Part shown: positions 1 to 20,365 of the stretch, in pieces
Layout of the letters: each line of letters begins with the position of its first letter
Numbering within the stretch: position 1 is the first letter of the stretch
Source of the DNA: a virus
DNA length: 20,471 nucleotides
Direction: 5' to 3' (one strand)
IMG/VR virus record: IMGVR_UViG_3300000242_000007
Location: 1-20,471 of that record
Made by a program: the position numbers and the translations under genes
The notes under the pieces: model-generated
Seen by the model: the letters and a program-made list of their open reading frames with translations, nothing else
Database searches by the model: none
Told to the model about the DNA's origin: nothing

Positions 1-391
1 TGTCGGGCATAGGTATTGTGATCTTATCGCCGCCGATGTCATGCCCACCCCAACCTATAGCTGGACCGAACACATACCAATCAGTTTCATGCTGGTAATC
101 CCATAGGTCTGTTACTTGGCAATCAAAATTCCACGGACATACGGCTTGGGTAACTCTATCGTTCCCGATTACCGTCCGTGCCTGCTCAAGTGAATGGACT
201 ACTGTGAACTCATTATCAAGACCACGACCTATGATCTCAGCAGGGTTTGCAGGTGGAGAATCTGTCAGGTTAATCACAACCATTTTATCAATATCCCCTG
301 CCGCCATACACGCATAACTCCACGCGAATAAGTCTCTCCCAGAACAGATGTCTACGTCCGGCGCTTCATAATAAAAACAGACGCCTGCCAT
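1..391 (-). CDS. Partial phage protein, possibly SPOUT/TrmH-like (C-terminus off window)
   Basis: The ATG at 391-389 lies 2 bp after the stop of the Hint gene, so this is the next gene of the leftward operon. The frame stays open for 130 codons to the window edge, and the C-terminus is missing. The N-terminus reads MAGVCFYYEAPDVDICSGRD, followed by a Trp-containing stretch (FAWSYACMAAG), a hydrophobic strand (KMVVINLTD), and near the cut end DWYVFGPAIGW then KITIPMP. The last two stretches resemble the 'VFGpe..G' and 'IPM' segments of the knotted AdoMet-binding region of SPOUT (TrmH/SpoU) RNA methyltransferases. That is a pattern match by eye. The protein is short and the diagnostic Ser-Leu-Asn region would lie beyond the edge. 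It could equally be an uncharacterised phage protein. The gene itself is well supported; the function is weak. Confidence 0.6.
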   Translation of the reverse strand, partial: MAGVCFYYEAPDVDICSGRDLFAWSYACMAAGDIDKMVVINLTDSPPANPAEIIGRGLDNEFTVVHSLEQARTVIGNDRVTQAVCPWNFDCQVTDLWDYQHETDWYVFGPAIGWGGHDIGGDKITIPMPD

Positions 392-393
392 GA

Positions 394-1281
394 TTAGTAC
401 ACCAGTATCCCGTTGGCAAAGAACTTCGAGTTCGCAAATGTGTAAACCGTCTCCGGGTAATCAATCAGTCTAATCTCGTCAATCCTGACAGTATCTCCAG
501 CGATAGTCATCACCCTGTCACCGACCGCCAGCGCCTTGGCAACCCCAAGGTCTTTGTAGTCGATACCGGGATCAGGATTGACAGCAGCATAACCCTTGCC
601 TGCAACGTACAGCGGGTGGTCCTCAGAAGCGTCGAGGTAACGGTCGTCGTCAAAGGTGATTCGATACATGACACGATCCACACGAGTGATGACCTCGGTT
701 ACCTTTTCGATGCCGTTCTCTACCCGAATCATATCGCCAACCTTGACTCTACCAATTGGCATTGGCAGTCCGTCTGCCATAGTAATCATCGTCTCTGGCG
801 TGAAGCAGCAAGTCGGGCACATATCAGGGAGTAGGTTACAACTCCACGTAGCACCTGATGTAGTCTGTAAAACATTACCACCAGACGCGGCATCGTGAAA
901 ACGGAAATAACCAATGATAGTTACTGCGGTTGAATTTGAGGTGTTGTCGAGAATCTGGAATGTCTGGGTCGTACCAAGATTGTATCGTGTACTATTACTT
1001 TTGCCACTCCACGCGCCTGCCGTTCCACCTGTACGGATGAACTCGACCCAAGCATCTGATGCTGATCCTGTGTCTAACCAACCAGCAGTTATAGCTACGG
1101 AGAAGCTGCCGGTAGCGTTAGTCTCATACTCATCACCCGCGCTGTCGAACCTAGCACCAACGTAAATTGACGAGTAGATGGAGTCAATACCAGTATTGGT
1201 ATCGCCGTCTGCTACAGCGGATACTGTTGGTGAAGCACCGCCCGACTCATGCCACATCCCTATTGGATGCATACCCGGCAT
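394..1281 (-). CDS. Virion-associated protein with C-terminal Hint (hedgehog/intein) autoprocessing domain
   Basis: This 295-residue protein has two parts. Residues 1-150 are Ser/Thr/Gly-rich and probably beta-structured, like the distal parts of phage tail proteins. Residues 155-295 are a Hint domain: CPTCCFTPETMI with the likely nucleophile at Cys159, then VKVGDMIRV (about 180-188), the block-B-like ASEDHPLYV with His222, LAVGDRV (about 251-257) and the closing VYTF....FFANGILVY. In the family, the first Cys attacks its own peptide bond by an N-S acyl shift, allowing cleavage or ester transfer of the N-terminal part. The usual last His-Asn is absent: the protein stops at LVY. Splicing is therefore not expected, and any processing would release only the N-terminal half. 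The ATG shares one base with the TAA of the upstream fibre gene, which suggests translational coupling. Position after the fibres suggests an adhesion or appendage role. Confidence 0.88.
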   Translation of the reverse strand: MPGMHPIGMWHESGGASPTVSAVADGDTNTGIDSIYSSIYVGARFDSAGDEYETNATGSFSVAITAGWLDTGSASDAWVEFIRTGGTAGAWSGKSNSTRYNLGTTQTFQILDNTSNSTAVTIIGYFRFHDAASGGNVLQTTSGATWSCNLLPDMCPTCCFTPETMITMADGLPMPIGRVKVGDMIRVENGIEKVTEVITRVDRVMYRITFDDDRYLDASEDHPLYVAGKGYAAVNPDPGIDYKDLGVAKALAVGDRVMTIAGDTVRIDEIRLIDYPETVYTFANSKFFANGILVY

Positions 1282-3491
1282 TACGGTGTAATCCCAGCAC
1301 CCATCAAGAGGTACACAGTTGTAGACTCACGTATCAAAGTTGCGTATCCACCGGGGGCAATTGTCGCGCTTCCTGCTGCATCGGTAGTAGCAGAGCCAGT
1401 CAGGACATACAGCGTTGTTCCAGTGCCTTCTGTGACAGTCATGTTGCCAGATGCGCCTCGGTTCCAAATTGCGATCTGCGCGCCGACCGGGAACTGCGTA
1501 TCAGTACTCGGTTCGAGTGTAAGGGTTCGGGCTGTCGTGGTCGTCTTGCCCCAGCAACCATTGACCATAGCGTCGGCAACTGAGTCGGTCGTCATGTTCA
1601 ATGTCTGGTTGAGGTTATCGAGTACGCTGGCAGAACTTCTGCGGTACGTCGCGTAGGCCAGTGGATAATCAATGCCCGTGTCACCAGTAAAGTATGCGTC
1701 ATTGGGCACGTTGTTCTTAACCCAGAACTGCCCATAAGTTGCGGAGTCTGTCGCCGCTGCGGTGTCCTCCTTTAGAAATACATTCGCTGGTAATGTAATC
1801 GCAGCAGCACTGAACACCCACTGCCCCGAGACGGTTTCAGTGGTCGACTTATCGAGTAGGTTCGCCGCAGTGATGCCAGCGATCTGCGTGGCACTGAGAT
1901 TGCCAGTTGACGAATTGAACGTCAGATTGGTGCCGGTCTTCGGTGCGATGTCACCTGTCGCTGAGATAGCGAACATGGGAAAGCATGTAGTATCAGCACT
2001 CTCATCTTGTACTGTGATCTGGGTTGGAACGCTACCACCAGCTGCCTTACTACCCCATGCCCATGCCACAGCATCGGAGTACTTGTAGAGTGTGACAATA
2101 CCACCCTGCTCAATCGTTACATTGCCGGATGATGGCGCTGCACCAGCCTCCAGCCAGTAGATTGTCGTGCCGCTCTGAGCAAGGGTCAGGTCTTCAGTGT
2201 CATCGTTGTGAACAACCCATGTAGCGCCCTGTGGAATGGTTGCATCATTAGCAAACGTAAAGCTGAGCGCTCCACCAGCATCCTTATGCCAGATCATGCC
2301 GTTGTGGGCGAGATCAAACGTATCAGCCGCATCGATCTCATACACAGGCATGACGTTGAATCCAACTGGTCGTGATACGTCAGTGCCGTCTTTAACTCTG
2401 CCACCCGTGCCGTAATCGGATGTCGTTACCGCACCATCGAGCGTCCACGTTCCGGCGATGGCTTCAGTCGCAGACTTATCAACGAGGTTTGCTTCGGTGA
2501 TGCCGCCGAAGCTATTAGCGGTTACGGCAAGGTTGAAATCTACAGTGGTCATACCGCCAGTTGGCTGAACGGTGACGGTGCCTGATACGGCACTCCAGAT
2601 TATCGTGTCAGTGCCATCTGACATCTTGAGACTGCCGCCAGCGTTTGTGTCCCACGTCCAGTTTGCACTAATGGTTTCGACTGCTGTTTTATCAACGAGG
2701 TTTGCTTCGGTGATGCCACCATAACTTGTTGCTGTTATTGGAGCGCCGAAGACCACTGAGTCAACTGTTGTTCCTGTTCGATTGACAGTGAAGACGCTGG
2801 CACCTGCTCCATCAGCGTCTGTACGGGTACGAAGGGCAAACACCTCTGCTTGCGCACGAAAGTCCCAGTACCCGTTATCCGCAGTAACGCCAGTCTCGTA
2901 CATGCGAAGACGTGGGATAGCACTGGTGACGGTAATTAAATTGCTTGAGTCAATGGTGCCAGTGACATCGAGGCCACCAGCGGTAGTAGCCGCCTTCACC
3001 ACGTTATTGTGGTAGAGATCGACACCAGCGTTGGCTGAGATAACAAGCCCAGTCTCAGAACCGTTCTCCATCGTGAAGCGGAAGTCACCGCCAACTGGAG
3101 CCTTGAAGTAGGTGTCTGTGCCATTGAACAGGATGGTCGAGTCATCGCCAGTCCCAAGATAGATAGTACCGTTGTCCACCAAGTGGACGTTCGGAACATC
3201 GACATCGCCGCCAGTTACTTCCAGACCAAGGGACGTGTGGATGCCGGTTCCGTCATACGTGAGAGTGACGCTGCCCTCGATGTCGTCAGCAGTTGCTGCG
3301 CCCACGGCAATTTGGTCGTTTGCAATTGAGCCGCCAATTCCACCGCCGCCAATCTCAAAGATAGCGTTACTCGTGTTCTTCGAGAACAGCTTCTCATCAA
3401 GCGTATTGATCGCAAGCTCGCCCTGCTCCAGATCACCGGGTACCGGATCACCAGTCGTCGACTTACGCTTTGTAAGTATTACGTTAGCCAT
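1281..3491 (-). CDS. Large tail fibre protein with repeated LVDK modules
   Basis: The protein has 736 residues and is Gly/Thr/Ala-rich with almost no Cys. The N-terminus (MANVILTKRKS...LEQGELAINT...KLFSKN) is the attachment-type domain common at the start of phage fibres, and the next protein upstream shares its plan. Three copies of a G-I-T-x-A-N-L-x-D-K...W-x-x module lie at about 259-281, 330-351 and 539-561. Segments such as DTTCFPMFAISATGDIAPKT (about 500-519) and FWVKNNVPNDAYFTGDTG (about 589-606) recur in many tail-fibre genes. A longer Ile-Pro/Gly-rich unit appears twice (about 405-480 and 655-733), so the protein contains an internal duplication. It is inferred to form an elongated trimeric fibre in receptor binding. 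ATG 3491 lies 11 bp after the previous stop. No chaperone or peptidase (S74) tail was recognised. Confidence 0.85.
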   Translation of the reverse strand: MANVILTKRKSTTGDPVPGDLEQGELAINTLDEKLFSKNTSNAIFEIGGGGIGGSIANDQIAVGAATADDIEGSVTLTYDGTGIHTSLGLEVTGGDVDVPNVHLVDNGTIYLGTGDDSTILFNGTDTYFKAPVGGDFRFTMENGSETGLVISANAGVDLYHNNVVKAATTAGGLDVTGTIDSSNLITVTSAIPRLRMYETGVTADNGYWDFRAQAEVFALRTRTDADGAGASVFTVNRTGTTVDSVVFGAPITATSYGGITEANLVDKTAVETISANWTWDTNAGGSLKMSDGTDTIIWSAVSGTVTVQPTGGMTTVDFNLAVTANSFGGITEANLVDKSATEAIAGTWTLDGAVTTSDYGTGGRVKDGTDVSRPVGFNVMPVYEIDAADTFDLAHNGMIWHKDAGGALSFTFANDATIPQGATWVVHNDDTEDLTLAQSGTTIYWLEAGAAPSSGNVTIEQGGIVTLYKYSDAVAWAWGSKAAGGSVPTQITVQDESADTTCFPMFAISATGDIAPKTGTNLTFNSSTGNLSATQIAGITAANLLDKSTTETVSGQWVFSAAAITLPANVFLKEDTAAATDSATYGQFWVKNNVPNDAYFTGDTGIDYPLAYATYRRSSASVLDNLNQTLNMTTDSVADAMVNGCWGKTTTTARTLTLEPSTDTQFPVGAQIAIWNRGASGNMTVTEGTGTTLYVLTGSATTDAAGSATIAPGGYATLIRESTTVYLLMGAGITP
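2476..2504 (-). repeat. 29-bp direct repeat in fibre gene, copy A
   Basis: A 29-base stretch identical to 2689-2717 encodes the G-I-T-E-A-N-L-V-D-K core of the second fibre module. The identity is perfect at the DNA level, whereas the third module (around 1850-1880) shows only a degenerate version. This suggests a recent duplication or gene conversion between modules one and two. Confidence 0.9.
2689..2717 (-). repeat. 29-bp direct repeat in fibre gene, copy B
   Basis: Second perfect copy of the 29-base stretch at 2476-2504, offset by 213 bp (71 codons). It encodes the same module core in the same frame, so recombination between the copies would delete or add 71 codons without breaking the reading frame. 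Confidence 0.9.
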
Positions 3492-3502
3492 TACCAGCTA
3501 CC

Positions 3503-4861
3503 TTAGAACGTGCCACCATCAATGATGAAGCTATCAAGCGTTGCTGCTGCGTTGTCGCCAGAGATGTCCTCGAACGTCTTGGTACCACCGAAGGTCTGTG
3601 CACCTACACTGACGTAACCCGGAGTGCTGATCGTTGCTGCACTAAGGTTCTGCTGCACGATGGTCCAGTCAGCGACATCATTCAGTACACCGTCAGACTC
3701 AGCGATCAGTACGTCACCAACCTCAAGGATGGCAGAGCCAGTTGTCCAGTTGTAAGTACCGGCAACGGTGACTGTGTACATGTCGCCAGTGACAGAAGTG
3801 ATCGTATCCAGATCAGGAGAACCTGCACCTGCACCGGCGGTCGGGTCGAACGCACCCTTGTAGACAACTCCACCGACAACAGCCGCGTCAACATATGCCA
3901 CGATCGACTCAGACGATGCTAGGGTTGTAGCCGAAGCGGTAGCCATTGTGTCGTCATCAATGAACCATGTCCAACTAGCCGAACCCGTGTCAGTTGTTGA
4001 TACGAGGTTGGCGATCGTCTTGCCATTCAGTGTGCCCATGCCGGTGACGTTCTCGGCATCGTCAATAACAATCGAGGACTCTTGAATGGTGTCGCCGCCT
4101 GTTCCTGACCAGCGAACAATCGTATTATCGACCGTAGCGCCTGAACCGGATACATCACCACCACCGGCGGGGACACTCCACGTGCCAGAGCCATCAAGGA
4201 AGTATGTCGAGCCGACCGAGTTACTACCCGGCACGAGGCCAGAGGTGGTAGCTGCTGTTGCGAAGTCATCGAGCATCGCTGTTGCTTCAGTGCCAGTCAG
4301 CTCATCAACAATGGCACCGGCACCGGCGTTGTTACCGAGGAACACATTGTTCGCGACCACGTTCTGGATCATCGAGTACTCGACAGCATCAGGCTGGATG
4401 GTCAGGACAGTTGCACCTGCCACGTCGCCTGTATGCGTAGCGTTCTCCACGTGACCAAGGTCATCGTTGAAAAAGCTCAGCCCGATCTCACTCGCTGCCT
4501 TGCGGCTCTCGGTAGTGCCATCCTGCAAGATGAACTCTGTCGTGCCGGAAATGGTCGCTGTCATGTCAGTCAGCTCTGAGAAGTCCAGAGCCATCGTGAA
4601 TGCAGTTGCTGAACCAGCGTTTGCACCTGAAATACCGACACCTGTCGTAAGTGTCTGGTTGTCCTGTGTCGAGCTGTTTGGCTCTGCTGCAGCGGCACCA
4701 GTCAGGGTGGCGATCTTCTGAACGCCCGGTCCAGCGATACCGATGAACAATTCACCTACACTATTGCCAGAGTCCGACTCGGAAAAAGCAAGCTCACCTT
4801 GCGCCAACGAGGACGGAGTGTTTGTTGCATTGGATCTTGCGATCCTGATTACGTTAGCCAT
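3503..4861 (-). CDS. Tail fibre protein, paralogous N-terminus to the downstream fibre
   Basis: The protein has 452 residues. It starts MANVIRIARSNATNTPSSLAQGELAFSE...GELFIG, the same plan (MANVI, Q-G-E-L-A, then a short L-F segment) as the 736-residue fibre encoded downstream. Even the DNA around the two starts matches over 16 bp. Residues about 140-155 (NATHTGDVAGATVLTI) are a fibre module also found near the end of the 600-residue protein upstream. Around 216-232 is a STYFLDGSGTWSVPAGGG linker typical of fibre shafts. Residues about 380-425 (GDVLIAESDG...TPGYVSVGAQTFGGTKTF) are a widespread fibre segment. It ends in an aromatic FIIDGGTF. Its role is inferred as tail fibre or adhesin subunit. 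The ATG overlaps the upstream TAA by one base. Confidence 0.82.
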   Translation of the reverse strand: MANVIRIARSNATNTPSSLAQGELAFSESDSGNSVGELFIGIAGPGVQKIATLTGAAAAEPNSSTQDNQTLTTGVGISGANAGSATAFTMALDFSELTDMTATISGTTEFILQDGTTESRKAASEIGLSFFNDDLGHVENATHTGDVAGATVLTIQPDAVEYSMIQNVVANNVFLGNNAGAGAIVDELTGTEATAMLDDFATAATTSGLVPGSNSVGSTYFLDGSGTWSVPAGGGDVSGSGATVDNTIVRWSGTGGDTIQESSIVIDDAENVTGMGTLNGKTIANLVSTTDTGSASWTWFIDDDTMATASATTLASSESIVAYVDAAVVGGVVYKGAFDPTAGAGAGSPDLDTITSVTGDMYTVTVAGTYNWTTGSAILEVGDVLIAESDGVLNDVADWTIVQQNLSAATISTPGYVSVGAQTFGGTKTFEDISGDNAAATLDSFIIDGGTF

Positions 4862-6663
4862 TAGAAATATCCTGCATCAGTTATTGAGCTTAAGTTTACT
4901 TTCTTTATTGCGCCATCAGTATCATCGTGAATGGCCACGTCATCTGCTGAGTCAGCTACCACATCTGTCTGATTTGTGATGGCTGTCACATCCACAGTAA
5001 GGGCAGTTGCGCCTGTTACTTCGCCCGTGTGGGTTGCATTTTGTACAAGAGGAACACCATTTATGAGTACCTCACTACCTTCAATGTCCGTAGGGTACCC
5101 CGGATCACCGACATGGAATTCTTCTGGGTCTTGACCAATAAGCGGATAGTCACCGGGTATCGTAACTGATCCTACATTGCCATACCGGGCGCACCTCGTT
5201 AAACGAATATCATCAAGGTGCCCATCAAGAACCTGAGTGAAGGTCTGATTACTCGTATTATCCCATGCACCGACCGTGATCGGAACGCCGCTTACATTGG
5301 CTGATGGGTTGTTGTTGCTAAGGGTTTGGCTCACACGAGAAGCAGTGCCACCTGACACAAGACCGAAGAATATATCGACGTAGTGGTTCGCTCCGTTGAT
5401 GCGGCGTTGGGCTGCAAAGTAATACCAAACGTCAAGAGTAGGAGCAACGATTATTCCAGTTGGCGTATTACCAAAGCCGAAGCGTGCTTCTATTTGGTAC
5501 AGCGTTCCATTGAGATTGCCAAAACGCACCTCGAAGCTATTTACATCCTGTTGCGCCTGATTGACGAGCTGCCAGTCAGTGCCGGCTCCAGCTGGCAAAG
5601 AGTTGAGCCTAACAAAGCCATCAACCGTAACCTCATCCTCAGTCTCCAAGTCAAAGATCGTATCGCCAGTTGACTGCACGCCATCAGTAGTGCCATCCAA
5701 TAGGAGAGAAGCAGCGCCGTAATTGAATTGCGCCGTGTCCAGCTGAGCATTACCGTAGAAATTCTGTACGTCAGACTGCTTCAGCTCTGTGTAAGCTGTG
5801 GCAGCATCAGTGCCTTCCCACTTAGCGAGATAGAGGACATCGGCCCAGCACGGATCACCACCTACACCCTGCGGCGTAAATTCAAGAAGCTCAACGGGCG
5901 TCGTTGCCTCATTCTCCCAGTCCACTACAAAAGCATTGGGGAACTGCAACGCTCCGGAGGGGCGCAAGCGCATCCACTCTGTTGGTACGTTGCTACCAGC
6001 TTCTGACGTTGCGAACACCATCTCGGATGGCATGTCACCATTACCCGGTGTGCCGTCTATACGCACATCAATATCACCAGCACGATGGTAGCTGCTGGTA
6101 TGCCATGCGGTGAACCCGAGTCGGCCTACGTAGTCGTTATCTACAACATTGGAATGGCTGGATGTGTTCCCACGGGAACGGGCAATAATCAAGTTGGCGG
6201 CAACACCTGCACTTTCCGCATGTCGGTGAAGAACAAGGGTGGCATCGTTCGAACCACCGAACTCGTTGATCTTCATTACAGCATCGAACGAAGCACCGTT
6301 GACTAGGATGTTAGTTGCTTCAGTACCGGGGTCACCAACATTAAAAGTGCTGCCGTCCCATGTTAGTAACCCAGCAGTGACAATCCAGTCCGCGCCATCC
6401 CAGAACACCATGTCATTTGTGAGGAGACCAGTGACATCAGTGTCAGTCAAATCTGCGAAAGTAGTGACAACGCCACCACTGATAATGTTTTGGACAATAG
6501 TACTGGCAATGTTGTCCACATCAGATAGGAGGGCATACTCACGATTTCCACGTATGCCCTGCATCACCTCAACCGTCTCTTTCAGCGCTTGGGTGGTTCT
6601 CCAAAGGGCATCAACTTCATTGATTGGCTCTGGGATAGGTATGGGGTTTTGTACAATTGCCAT
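4861..6663 (-). CDS. Tail fibre/appendage protein with concanavalin A-like (LamG-type) domain
   Basis: The protein has 600 residues. The N-terminal 40 residues are Pro-rich then helical (VDALWRTTQALKETVEVMQ), plausibly an attachment coil. Residues about 105-235 are a fibre domain (LVNGASFDAVMKI, ARSRG, GRLGFTAWH, FATSEAGS.VPTEWMRLRPSG) seen ahead of many phage fibre tips. Residues about 280-495 look like a concanavalin A-like lectin/LamG sandwich: AQFNYGAASLLLDG, VDGFVRLNSL, WYYFAAQRRING and the C-terminal signature DGHLDDIRLTRCARYG. This suggests carbohydrate binding. The end (about 541-600) contains the NATHTGEVTGATALTV module shared with the downstream fibre, then IKKVNLSSITDAGYF. The motif VGDPG..T..I-L-(V/I)-N-G occurs twice, around 109-123 and 518-537. 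The start overlaps the upstream stop (TAATG), with a weak AAGG ribosome site. Confidence 0.85.
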   Translation of the reverse strand: MAIVQNPIPIPEPINEVDALWRTTQALKETVEVMQGIRGNREYALLSDVDNIASTIVQNIISGGVVTTFADLTDTDVTGLLTNDMVFWDGADWIVTAGLLTWDGSTFNVGDPGTEATNILVNGASFDAVMKINEFGGSNDATLVLHRHAESAGVAANLIIARSRGNTSSHSNVVDNDYVGRLGFTAWHTSSYHRAGDIDVRIDGTPGNGDMPSEMVFATSEAGSNVPTEWMRLRPSGALQFPNAFVVDWENEATTPVELLEFTPQGVGGDPCWADVLYLAKWEGTDAATAYTELKQSDVQNFYGNAQLDTAQFNYGAASLLLDGTTDGVQSTGDTIFDLETEDEVTVDGFVRLNSLPAGAGTDWQLVNQAQQDVNSFEVRFGNLNGTLYQIEARFGFGNTPTGIIVAPTLDVWYYFAAQRRINGANHYVDIFFGLVSGGTASRVSQTLSNNNPSANVSGVPITVGAWDNTSNQTFTQVLDGHLDDIRLTRCARYGNVGSVTIPGDYPLIGQDPEEFHVGDPGYPTDIEGSEVLINGVPLVQNATHTGEVTGATALTVDVTAITNQTDVVADSADDVAIHDDTDGAIKKVNLSSITDAGYF

Positions 6664-8876: not shown

Positions 8877-9056
8877 TCAATGCTCCTTCAGTTCTTCAAC
8901 TGCATTTTTTAAGTAAACTATTTCAACTCGCATCTCTGCGACTGCAACGGACGTATTCTGGGTGGTGTTCCCAACCCAAAGCAATAGAGCCACCAGTAAC
9001 ATAACCAGCGCTGTTTGTGCATGTCGCTCAAAAGCGTTGGTAATAACTTCAGTCAC
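8877..9056 (-). CDS. Small membrane protein with C-terminal coiled coil (holin-associated)
   Basis: The best start is the GTG at 9056-9054, which overlaps the holin stop (GTGACTGA) and has an A/G-rich ribosome site just before it. The frame is open further back to 9140, but that part is an out-of-frame reading of the holin. From GTG the product has 59 residues: an N-terminal amphipathic part (MTEVITNAFERHAQ), one hydrophobic segment (about 16-29, ALVMLLVALLLWVG) and a C-terminal heptad-like helix (VAVAEMRVEIVYLKNAVEELKEH, split here by description only). The predicted topology is a single TM with a soluble coil, the mirror image of XhlA-type lysis helpers. The overlap with the holin points to a role in lysis, such as holin partner or spanin-like. 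No lipobox or signal peptidase site is seen. The gene is likely real; the function is inferred. Confidence 0.65.
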   Translation of the reverse strand: MTEVITNAFERHAQTALVMLLVALLLWVGNTTQNTSVAVAEMRVEIVYLKNAVEELKEH

Positions 9057-9489
9057 CCTTCTTTTTCCCTGAGATAGAATTACGCTCAACGCCAAGGCGT
9101 TTCTCATAAGTACGTAGACCACCAAGCCCCAGCATACCAAGCAACAGGGTCATCAATGGAGCAATGTCCAGTTTCGGGAACGGCGGTATGTCTCTAACCG
9201 AGAATGCCAGTAGCCCCCATGTGGCCATCGGCTCCAACAGGAACTGCCAGAGCAGCGCTGACCCACAGACCCACATGATAAATGGTCGGGCTCCTGCCAC
9301 GAAGATACTCGAATGCTTGGCCTGCTCTTTGTTGATATCAAGCTGGCCCTGCACAAGCCCCGTCATGGCATTCAACATCTGCCCCTCGAACTGTTCCTTA
9401 GCTCGGGCGCGTTCATTCTTATCGGGGATGAAGCGTAGTACTCCATCCATGATCGGACCAAGGGCCCCTTTAATCAGATCAGCTAGCAT
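9049..9489 (-). CDS. Three-TM holin (GTA-holin-like)
   Basis: The protein has 146 residues. The N-terminal 60 residues are a charged helix (IPDKNERARAKEQFEGQML, then GLVQGQLDINKEQAKHSS). Next come hydrophobic segments at about 66-85 (AGARPFIMWVCGSALLWQFL), 87-98 (PMATWGLLAFSV) and 110-125 (APLMTLLLGMLGLGGL), then R-T-Y-E-K and a basic tail (GKKKGD). The order 'helix, A-R-P-x-x-x-W, TM, TM, LLGMLGLGGLRTYEK' matches the 3-TM holin family first described for gene-transfer agents. Holins form inner-membrane lesions that release endolysin or collapse the membrane potential. ATG 9489 is preceded by TAGGAG and AAGGA. The stop lies inside the start of the next small membrane gene. It is embedded in tail genes rather than next to an endolysin, and none is visible. 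Confidence 0.85.
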   Translation of the reverse strand: MLADLIKGALGPIMDGVLRFIPDKNERARAKEQFEGQMLNAMTGLVQGQLDINKEQAKHSSIFVAGARPFIMWVCGSALLWQFLLEPMATWGLLAFSVRDIPPFPKLDIAPLMTLLLGMLGLGGLRTYEKRLGVERNSISGKKKGD

Positions 9490-19031: not shown

Positions 19032-19499
19032 ATGTCCTGCCGGTACAAGGCATACTACTTCGAGAACTTCCCCATCAGCAGGCTCACCATTTGCGATGCC
19101 GCCCATCTCTACAAGGATGGAGTCAAAACCGGAGGCATGACGTTAGACAAATTTTACGAGCTAACAGCCAGCATCGAAGAACACGGACAGAGAGACCCAA
19201 TCATTGTAGAAGTTGACTCTGGAGGCCCGCCCCGCTACAGAATTTGCATGGGGAATAACCGAGTTGAAGCGCTTATATCCCTCGAAAAAACACACGTACG
19301 CGCACTGGTTATCCACAGAGCAAGGCAGCCTATGGCAGAGGATGGCGCTTATGAAAGGATTCAAGATGAGAACCTTGTTAGTTTCATGGAAGAAGTCCAT
19401 CCCGGCAACGACTGGTGGAAAAAGAGCGCTTGGGCCCAACGCATTCTCAGGTTTGCTGGGGAATCAGTAATGACCAGTACGCCGGCACCAACTGTGTAA
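19032..19499 (+). CDS. ParB-like (ParB/Srx-fold) domain protein
   Basis: The protein has 155 residues. The core is I-E-E-H-G-Q-R-D-P-I-I-V-E (48-60) followed by YRICMGNNRVEALISL (69-84) and a C-terminal strand VRALVIHR. The order 'sI...Gq.dPiiV......Y.i..G..R.eAl..L....V.a.v' is that of the ParB N-terminal / sulfiredoxin-like nucleotide-binding domain. The usual G-H-R-R is G-N-N-R here. The helix-turn-helix of true partition ParB is absent, so partition is unlikely. In phages such stand-alone domains occur near packaging and head genes and may act as CTP/ATP-binding or nuclease-like factors. AAGGA lies nine bases before ATG 19032. It is the first gene of the rightward block. Confidence 0.78.
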   Translation: MSCRYKAYYFENFPISRLTICDAAHLYKDGVKTGGMTLDKFYELTASIEEHGQRDPIIVEVDSGGPPRYRICMGNNRVEALISLEKTHVRALVIHRARQPMAEDGAYERIQDENLVSFMEEVHPGNDWWKKSAWAQRILRFAGESVMTSTPAPTV

Positions 19500-19955
19500 A
19501 TGGGTATTCAACGAGCCCAACGATCAGCAACGCTACGTGCACGCACTTACGCGGAGTTGCGCGAACTTGAAGTGCCTGTCCACAATGACTTAGCATCAGT
19601 GCTGGTAGGTAACGAGGAAGGTTGGTTCATATTTGACGACACTGACGTCCGAGCGGATGATGGTGTTGATATCATAGAACCTGATGACACGACCCCCGGG
19701 TCTTGGGTGCGAACAGATTTTGGGATTGATAAGTTGAAAAATGCAGGGCAATTAGACGAGCAAGACGACGGCGATACGCTGTATATCGGTGAAGCTCTCC
19801 CCGGCACAGCGACCAGCTCTGCCACTTGGAGTATCAAGAAGGTCGTATTCACAGAAGACGTTGGTGGCAATACTGACGCGGTGACTACATGGGCTGATGG
19901 CGATAGCAATCGTGACAACATCTGGGACAACCACCTCGCGTTGAGTTACTCATGA
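19500..19955 (+). CDS. Tail-type structural protein (putative)
   Basis: The protein has 151 residues. The first part (TLRARTYAELRELEV, then ADDGVDIIEPDDTTPGSWVR) matches the small beta domain often found at the front of phage tailspikes and fibres ('...DG...I.P.....G.W.R'). The second part (SATWSIKKVVFTEDVGGNTD, then WADGDSNRDNIWDNHLALSYS described to the end) matches the 'W.IK.i......t...wadG....d.iWd.r..lsY' ending of a common phage tail module. It begins directly after the previous stop (TAA then ATG) without a ribosome site and overlaps the next gene as ATGA. A structural role is inferred, although it lies on the opposite strand from the main virion genes. Confidence 0.68.
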   Translation: MGIQRAQRSATLRARTYAELRELEVPVHNDLASVLVGNEEGWFIFDDTDVRADDGVDIIEPDDTTPGSWVRTDFGIDKLKNAGQLDEQDDGDTLYIGEALPGTATSSATWSIKKVVFTEDVGGNTDAVTTWADGDSNRDNIWDNHLALSYS

Positions 19956-20365
19956 GAGAGTGCGGTGAATGTACCTTGTGCTGTCTGGTTACAGAGATCC
20001 CTGAGCTGAGCAAGCCGATCAACGTGATGTGCAATTTCTGCGATCAGGGCTGCACGATCCACGCTGAGCGTCCCAAGTCTTGCCGCAATTATAATTGTGC
20101 TTGGCTGCTGGGTGCTATGGATGAGGACATGCGACCCGACAAGTGCCACGTTGTAATTGAGCCACTACCAGATGAGAGCGTCGTGCTCGCCCTGATTGAG
20201 CCGGGGTACGAGGAATCTCTTGTTGACCTTGACCTTTCGGAGTTCACCAAGCGTGGTGCCTCCATTGTTGCCAGTGATGGTAGGGCGCTGTTTTGCGAGG
20301 GCGCAGACCACAAGAGCGTACAGAAGGTGCTGAATGATTCAGCACAACTGTTTGGGATGATCTGA
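19952..20365 (+). CDS. CxxCxxCC cysteine-cluster protein (YkgJ-like)
   Basis: The protein has 137 residues. The N-terminal half carries nine cysteines: C4-x2-C7-x2-C10-C11, C27-x2-C30-x3-C34, C44 and C49, with the phrase C-T-I-H-A-E-R-P-K-S-C-R-N-Y-N-C. This is the signature of the CxxCxxCC (YkgJ) family, thought to bind Zn or an Fe-S cluster ('C..C..CC......C.I...RP..CR.....C'). The C-terminal half is acidic with two more Cys. Function in phages is not established. The start is an ATGA overlap, and the end shares a base with the next ATG, so it belongs to the rightward operon. Confidence 0.78.
   Translation: MRECGECTLCCLVTEIPELSKPINVMCNFCDQGCTIHAERPKSCRNYNCAWLLGAMDEDMRPDKCHVVIEPLPDESVVLALIEPGYEESLVDLDLSEFTKRGASIVASDGRALFCEGADHKSVQKVLNDSAQLFGMI

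Follow-up and report, generated by a model that had tools for sequence, protein, structure and literature searches.

Type B BILs combine a Hint fold and a catalytic Cys1 with the absence of a block G; they are described as performing uncoupled cleavage at the splice sites (PMC4031507). The phage Hint domains discussed here share with them the fold, Cys1, the lack of the block G His-Asn and the predicted cleavage without splicing (PMC4031507), but differ in being always C-terminal, in belonging to proteins of the tail region, and in carrying a CxxC motif at positions -4 and -1 as well as an invariant terminal Tyr. BIL2 of Tetrahymena thermophila BUBL1 (6y75/6tmm) is the best structural and profile match, although it possesses a C-terminal Asn (N143) and a C-flank and serves ubiquitin-like conjugation in the ciliate. 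The Hog domain of Hedgehog (1at0) is likewise a C-terminal Hint without His-Asn, which cuts off its N-part through a thioester; the phage family, in contrast, has no sterol recognition region, and in an alignment made by eye a conserved counterpart of Hog Asp303 was not seen.

Two further systems are comparable in part. Self-processing of phage fibres is known from S74-type intramolecular chaperones, which, like the phage Hint (whose removal is predicted), are constant, self-removing C-terminal domains combined with exchangeable adhesin parts, although fold and chemistry are unrelated (Ser/Lys autoproteolysis in S74). Redox-controlled inteins (internal disulphide switch, DnaE redox trap) contain cysteines whose pairing with the catalytic Cys can gate the reaction; there they occur in individual inteins, whereas in the phage Hints they form a fixed family-wide motif with a putative gating role. 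In a literature search conducted mostly outside the subscription journals, where an earlier description may exist, no Hint module at the C-terminus of phage tail proteins was found; as far as this search reached, a phage module with a CPxC|C junction is undescribed. BFVD entries for uncultured phages bear automatic 'Hint domain' names.

The Hint gene and its genomic context

The window, i.e., the whole stretch of DNA analysed (20,471 nt), belongs to a virus record of 21,155 bases, of which it covers the greater part. Its minus strand carries a tailed-phage structural module comprising an SU10-like portal, a major head protein and tail fibre-like genes, one of them at 4861..6663 (phrog_9942, 1.1e-11). 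The Hint-protein gene (394..1281, 295 aa, ATG start, stop codon TAA at 394-396) is the final complete gene of this module; an earlier, sequence-only reading had given its coordinates correctly, and its strand is minus. The start codon lies within the stop codon of the preceding gene (TAATG at 1279-1283), a minus-strand gene of 736 aa (1281..3491), and this one-base overlap recurs in the related contigs L014, L006, L033 and L041. The 736-aa product had no tail-fibre family match of its own; its C-terminus resembles that of the protein preceding the Hint gene of L002. On the other side, a minus-strand gene with unassigned function (1..391), cut by the contig end, starts with the ATG from 391, two bases past the Hint-gene stop, and a protein similar to its product also follows the Hint gene in L002 and L014.

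Tail fibre genes adjoin the Hint gene in L006, L045, L046 and L050, while in L014 a tail fibre gene follows closely after the first Hint gene, which itself comes after those for the tape measure and the distal tail proteins. Adhesins and fibre chaperones of well-studied phages are often encoded at such a place in the tail-fibre region. Both the location in the tail-fibre module and the fusion to a known tail protein in one homologue are features of a tail or adsorption protein, and a tail- or adhesin-type precursor, presumably located in the virion, would be the best explanation for the window protein. Its assignment to the adsorption apparatus in the sequence-only reading is thus borne out by context, namely the tail-fibre region, the one-base overlap upstream and the homologue fused to a gpL-like hub.

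Several other genes were observed in passing. Directly behind the Hint gene, sulfotransferase-like genes are found in L006 (1610-2194) and L041 (1963-2547), and a 2OG-Fe(II) oxygenase-like gene, with a match below the cut-off, in L033 (71-571). In or beside the phage module of the window are a GTA-type 3TM holin (9049-9489, minus strand) and a ParB_N-like protein (19032-19499, plus strand; match below the cut-off). The plus strand also encodes a small cysteine-rich protein (19952-20365; CGECTLCC ... CNFCDQGC ... CRNYNC) with no Pfam match at 0.01, which we take to resemble YkgJ-type cysteine clusters.

Evidence for a Hint domain

Residues 1-154 of the window protein (820..1281, minus strand, as for all features of this gene) form a beta-sandwich-like domain, as judged from alignment, AlphaFold2 strands at 27-151 and group comparison. 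It is followed by the conserved CxxC, Cys155-Pro-Thr-Cys158 (808..819, positions -4 to -1), and by the Hint domain at residues 159-295 (397..807), delimited by profile search, AlphaFold2, Foldseek and family HMM. The latter includes the predicted nucleophile Cys159 in CFTPET (Cys1; codon at 805..807), the block B T/SxxH motif Ser-Glu-Asp-His222 in SEDHPLYV (616..627), and block F with the C-terminus, FFANGILVY (397..423). Cys159, His222 and FFANGILV are all at the residues where they had been read from the sequence alone. The C-P-T-C-C cluster that had been placed before the nucleophile is present, but its third Cys is the nucleophile itself.

Searched as a single sequence against Pfam, the window protein gave matches below the cut-off only. 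The family profile matched Hint, BIL and intein domains among solved structures (E 1e-13 to 1e-8), including BIL2 (E 3.6e-13), a C. thermocellum BIL (E 1e-10) and the gp41-1 intein. An AlphaFold2 model built with 19 related sequences reached a mean pLDDT of 86.6, with most of the Hint region above 90 and modest confidence at the junction (67 at residues 151-160). All of the best 50 Foldseek matches in the PDB were Hint folds (inteins, BILs, Hedgehog), the first being BIL2 of Tetrahymena BUBL1 (6y75; E 8.2e-10, TM-score 0.79 on target). Structure prediction, proposed earlier as a check, therefore gives a Hint fold, and together with the N-terminal Cys nucleophile, the T/SxxH of block B and block F this places the protein in the Hint superfamily: by model and profile, its C-terminal part is a Hint domain, beyond chance resemblance.

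A PHROG 'DNA primase' match and a Pfam AXH match of the window protein were not accepted as function. AXH, the ataxin-1 module, also matches the Hint regions of L057, L062 and L045 (82.7 bits in L057, above the cut-off), and ataxin-1 structures give weak matches to the family profile, which suggests a possible kinship of AXH and Hint.

Family members and conserved residues

A protein search gave the first relative; the others came from scanning IMG/VR with degenerate DNA patterns for different blocks, and members were collected with an HMM of the Hint domain. Including the window, the family consists of 20 distinct proteins, all from uncultured virus contigs: the window, L002 (the same as the second gene of L014), L033/L037, L039, L048, L052 and L075; the first gene of L014 (the same as L038), L044/L046, L050, two genes of L006, L041, L042 and L045; and L047/L053/L055, L049/L051/L054, L056, L062 and L069. 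A search among cultured phages returned just ordinary inteins or distant Hints, the N-part of L033, which is of the window's type, had no match among cultured phages, and searches of genome contigs found no relatives.

Cys-1, Cys1, the block-B His and the terminal Tyr are present in 20/20 proteins, each of which stops directly after this Tyr (...V/A-Tyr-stop). Cys-4 is found in 17 of them; it is absent in L045, while L062 and L069 have a CxxCC a few residues earlier. In an alignment of 19 of the 20 proteins (without L075), the invariant residues were Cys-1, Cys1, Phe160, Thr161, Arg200, His222, Pro223, Tyr242, Lys243, Asn290 and the last Tyr (Tyr295 in the window). Since each scan fixed a different part of the module, the parts can be checked against each other: the block F scan and the block B scan, neither of which required the cysteines or the stop, both found members with Cys-1, Cys1 and the Tyr-stop end, and the block A scans recovered the identical C-terminal end. 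The dN/dS of the Hint part was 0.10-0.30 in the measurable pairs, and by this measure it is under purifying selection.

Two candidate lines of support were discarded. The CPTCCF pattern alone gave mostly chance matches (27 loci, most of them short frames). The Hints of L057-L061, with several preceding Cys, could not be used as evidence for the CxxC motif, because the pattern with which they were found demanded CxxCC.

Absence of the C-terminal His-Asn

The window protein ends in FFANGILVY followed by the stop: Tyr stands where the penultimate His would be, and there is no Asn after it, so that the frame does stop at the expected His-Asn position, as had been read from the sequence. The comparison with homologues, also proposed earlier, found the Cys/His pair in all family members and His-Asn at the C-terminus of none. 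A simple truncation in one phage is rejected by the fact that every member ends at the same Tyr. Class 1 inteins have a C-terminal Asn/Gln/Asp and a C-extein nucleophile, whereas all members of this family have the Tyr-stop. Hints located mid-protein in the fetched contigs keep their His-Asn (VVHN in L057, LSHN in L065, LVHN in L071); as these retain it and the terminal ones do not, His-Asn appears to have been lost where nothing follows the Hint, the simplest reading being that Asn cyclisation would be dispensable when no C-flank exists. The loss alone is not new, since type B BILs have already been described without block G. In L057 (262-3354), one of the mid-protein examples, two Hint domains that both end in VVHN precede an S74-like chaperone segment in a single protein.

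Interchangeable N-terminal parts

Profile comparison and family searches distinguished at least four types of N-part in front of the Hint: beta-sandwich, BACON-like, lambda gpL-like tail-tip hub and subtilase. The domain of the window is common to L002, L033, L039, L048, L052 and L075, and in the beta-sandwich group this type A is linked with B2 and L045, and B with B2 (hhalign probabilities 59-95%). The BACON-like group was named from sequence and had no Pfam match. The N-part of the first gene of L014 is a lambda gpL-like hub (phrog_2048, 3e-28). Roseobacter phage CRP-406 and other cultured hub relatives have the same gene order as L014; their hub proteins end ...SWGGS, whereas that of L014 continues through a short linker into CPHC and the Hint. 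The subtilase (PF00082) proteins of uncultured viruses (L062, 2-1540; L069, 3-1661) have a C-terminal Hint preceded by many cysteines.

The boundary of the module can be located in closely related phages. L047/L053 and L056 resemble each other at about 80-94% in the flanking DNA and about 80% at the gene start; between L047 and L056, nucleotide identity is ~40-60% in the middle of the N-part, in the 315 bases leading up to the Cys-4 codon, and rises to 93-100% from this codon onward. L056 and L042 show the reverse pattern, with N-parts 80-97% alike (180 bases before the junction) and Hints 51-77%. Judging from these alignments, related phages have swapped N-parts with a breakpoint at the Cys-4 codon, and the Hint is an interchangeable C-terminal module. 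CPxC counts as part of this module because the exchange boundary sits there, which strengthens the importance ascribed to the cluster in the sequence-only reading.

Proposed mechanism and alternatives

We consider it fairly probable that the window protein is a phage tail- or adhesin-type precursor with a C-terminal self-processing Hint, in which a thioester forms at Cys159 and the N-part is released or transferred. For Hog and inteins, it is established that Cys1 together with TxxH carries out an N-S acyl shift (PMC4695875, PMC4031507), and with Cys1 and the block-B His invariant in the homologues, the claim that the domain could in principle activate its N-terminal bond holds. Cys159, aided by Ser219-x-x-His222, would attack the Cys158-Cys159 peptide bond to give the thioester; compared with type B BILs, the N-terminal bond is the only one that exists in the window Hint, and splicing would be impossible because there is neither an Asn nor a C-extein. 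Resolution by water or another nucleophile would then yield a 158-residue N-product ending in ...CPTC and a 137-residue Hint fragment, with the Cys-4 thiol (close in sequence), water or an amine as possible finishers. Most likely, the CPxC thiols would either act as a redox- or metal-dependent control on this step or pass on the acyl group, Cys-4 attacking the carbonyl of Cys-1. As a constant C-terminal domain that removes itself from behind exchangeable host-contact domains, the module would play a role like that of the S74 chaperone, for which the auto-proteolysed 133-residue chaperone of T5 pb1 is a precedent (PMC4690869). Cleavage, acyl acceptor, role of CPxC, virion location and timing are what we infer from these comparisons, and the interpretation given in the sequence-only reading is partly supported. 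Against this reading speak the modest model confidence at the junction and the restriction of the family to uncultured virus contigs; in addition, the fixed Cys at -1 and -4 could instead form a metal site, and resolution by water only would not by itself explain the strong conservation of the last residues of the N-product.

An alternative is conjugation, in which the Cys159 thioester would be passed to an acceptor: a lysine, a hydroxyl, or the thiol of Cys-4, which would give a small thiolactone. The N-part of an adhesin or hub would thereby be linked covalently to the host surface or to another protein of the virion, in the way that Hedgehog receives cholesterol. We regard this as a doubtful but serious option, because BIL2, the closest structure, hands its N-flank to lysines in isopeptide bonds (PMC8616854); the conserved CPxC on the acyl side suggests that the C-terminus of the N-product matters, and the family-specific Tyr242-Lys243 pair is invariant. 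However, no acceptor was identified, the protein ends after block F, leaving no sterol-type recognition region, and no conserved counterpart of Hog Asp303, which is needed for transfer, was seen (by-eye alignment; the position varies in the family). More doubtful still is the specific proposal that the CPxC end of adhesins and hubs carries a reactive thioester or thiolactone as a thiol-gated covalent linker to a virion partner or the host envelope.

A further alternative is a structural domain in which CxxC-C and His222 would be ligands of zinc or an iron-sulphur cluster, the Hint acting as a catalytically silent scaffold or trimer cap. Three closely spaced cysteines, still more of them in L062 and L069, and the Fe-S cluster in the C-terminal domain of lambda gpL (PMC10721106), at the place corresponding to the L014 Hint, are consistent with such a domain. 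We nevertheless judge it improbable: the catalytic Cys1, S/TxxH and block F are retained under purifying selection, L045 has lost Cys-4 but retains Cys-1, Cys1 and the His, and the compared cultured gpL-like relatives end without a cluster domain and without a Hint. Cleavage with release therefore ranks as most likely, conjugation next and the silent metal-binding cap third. A decaying intein or selfish remnant stranded at a gene end would account for an intein-like fold incapable of splicing in phages, where inteins abound, but is highly improbable, as twenty members share an identical end, low dN/dS and four unrelated partners, there is no room for an endonuclease, the conserved motif lies outside the canonical blocks, and purifying selection and the invariant terminal residue already contradict it.

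Implications for phage biology

Under the favoured reading, the Hint domain on proteins beside tail fibres probably cuts itself off, consistently at one unusual cluster of cysteines, which hints at a thiol-controlled finishing or attachment of the host-contact part of the virus. If the family cleaves, intein chemistry would be a further means by which phages finish their host-contact proteins, supplied as an exchangeable C-terminal module whose thiol motif is built in at the cut. The family would then be a natural set of ~20 diverse, cassette-like N-cleaving Hints having a defined CPxC|C junction, of use in protein ligation chemistry and in the search for the redox or metal cue that triggers maturation.
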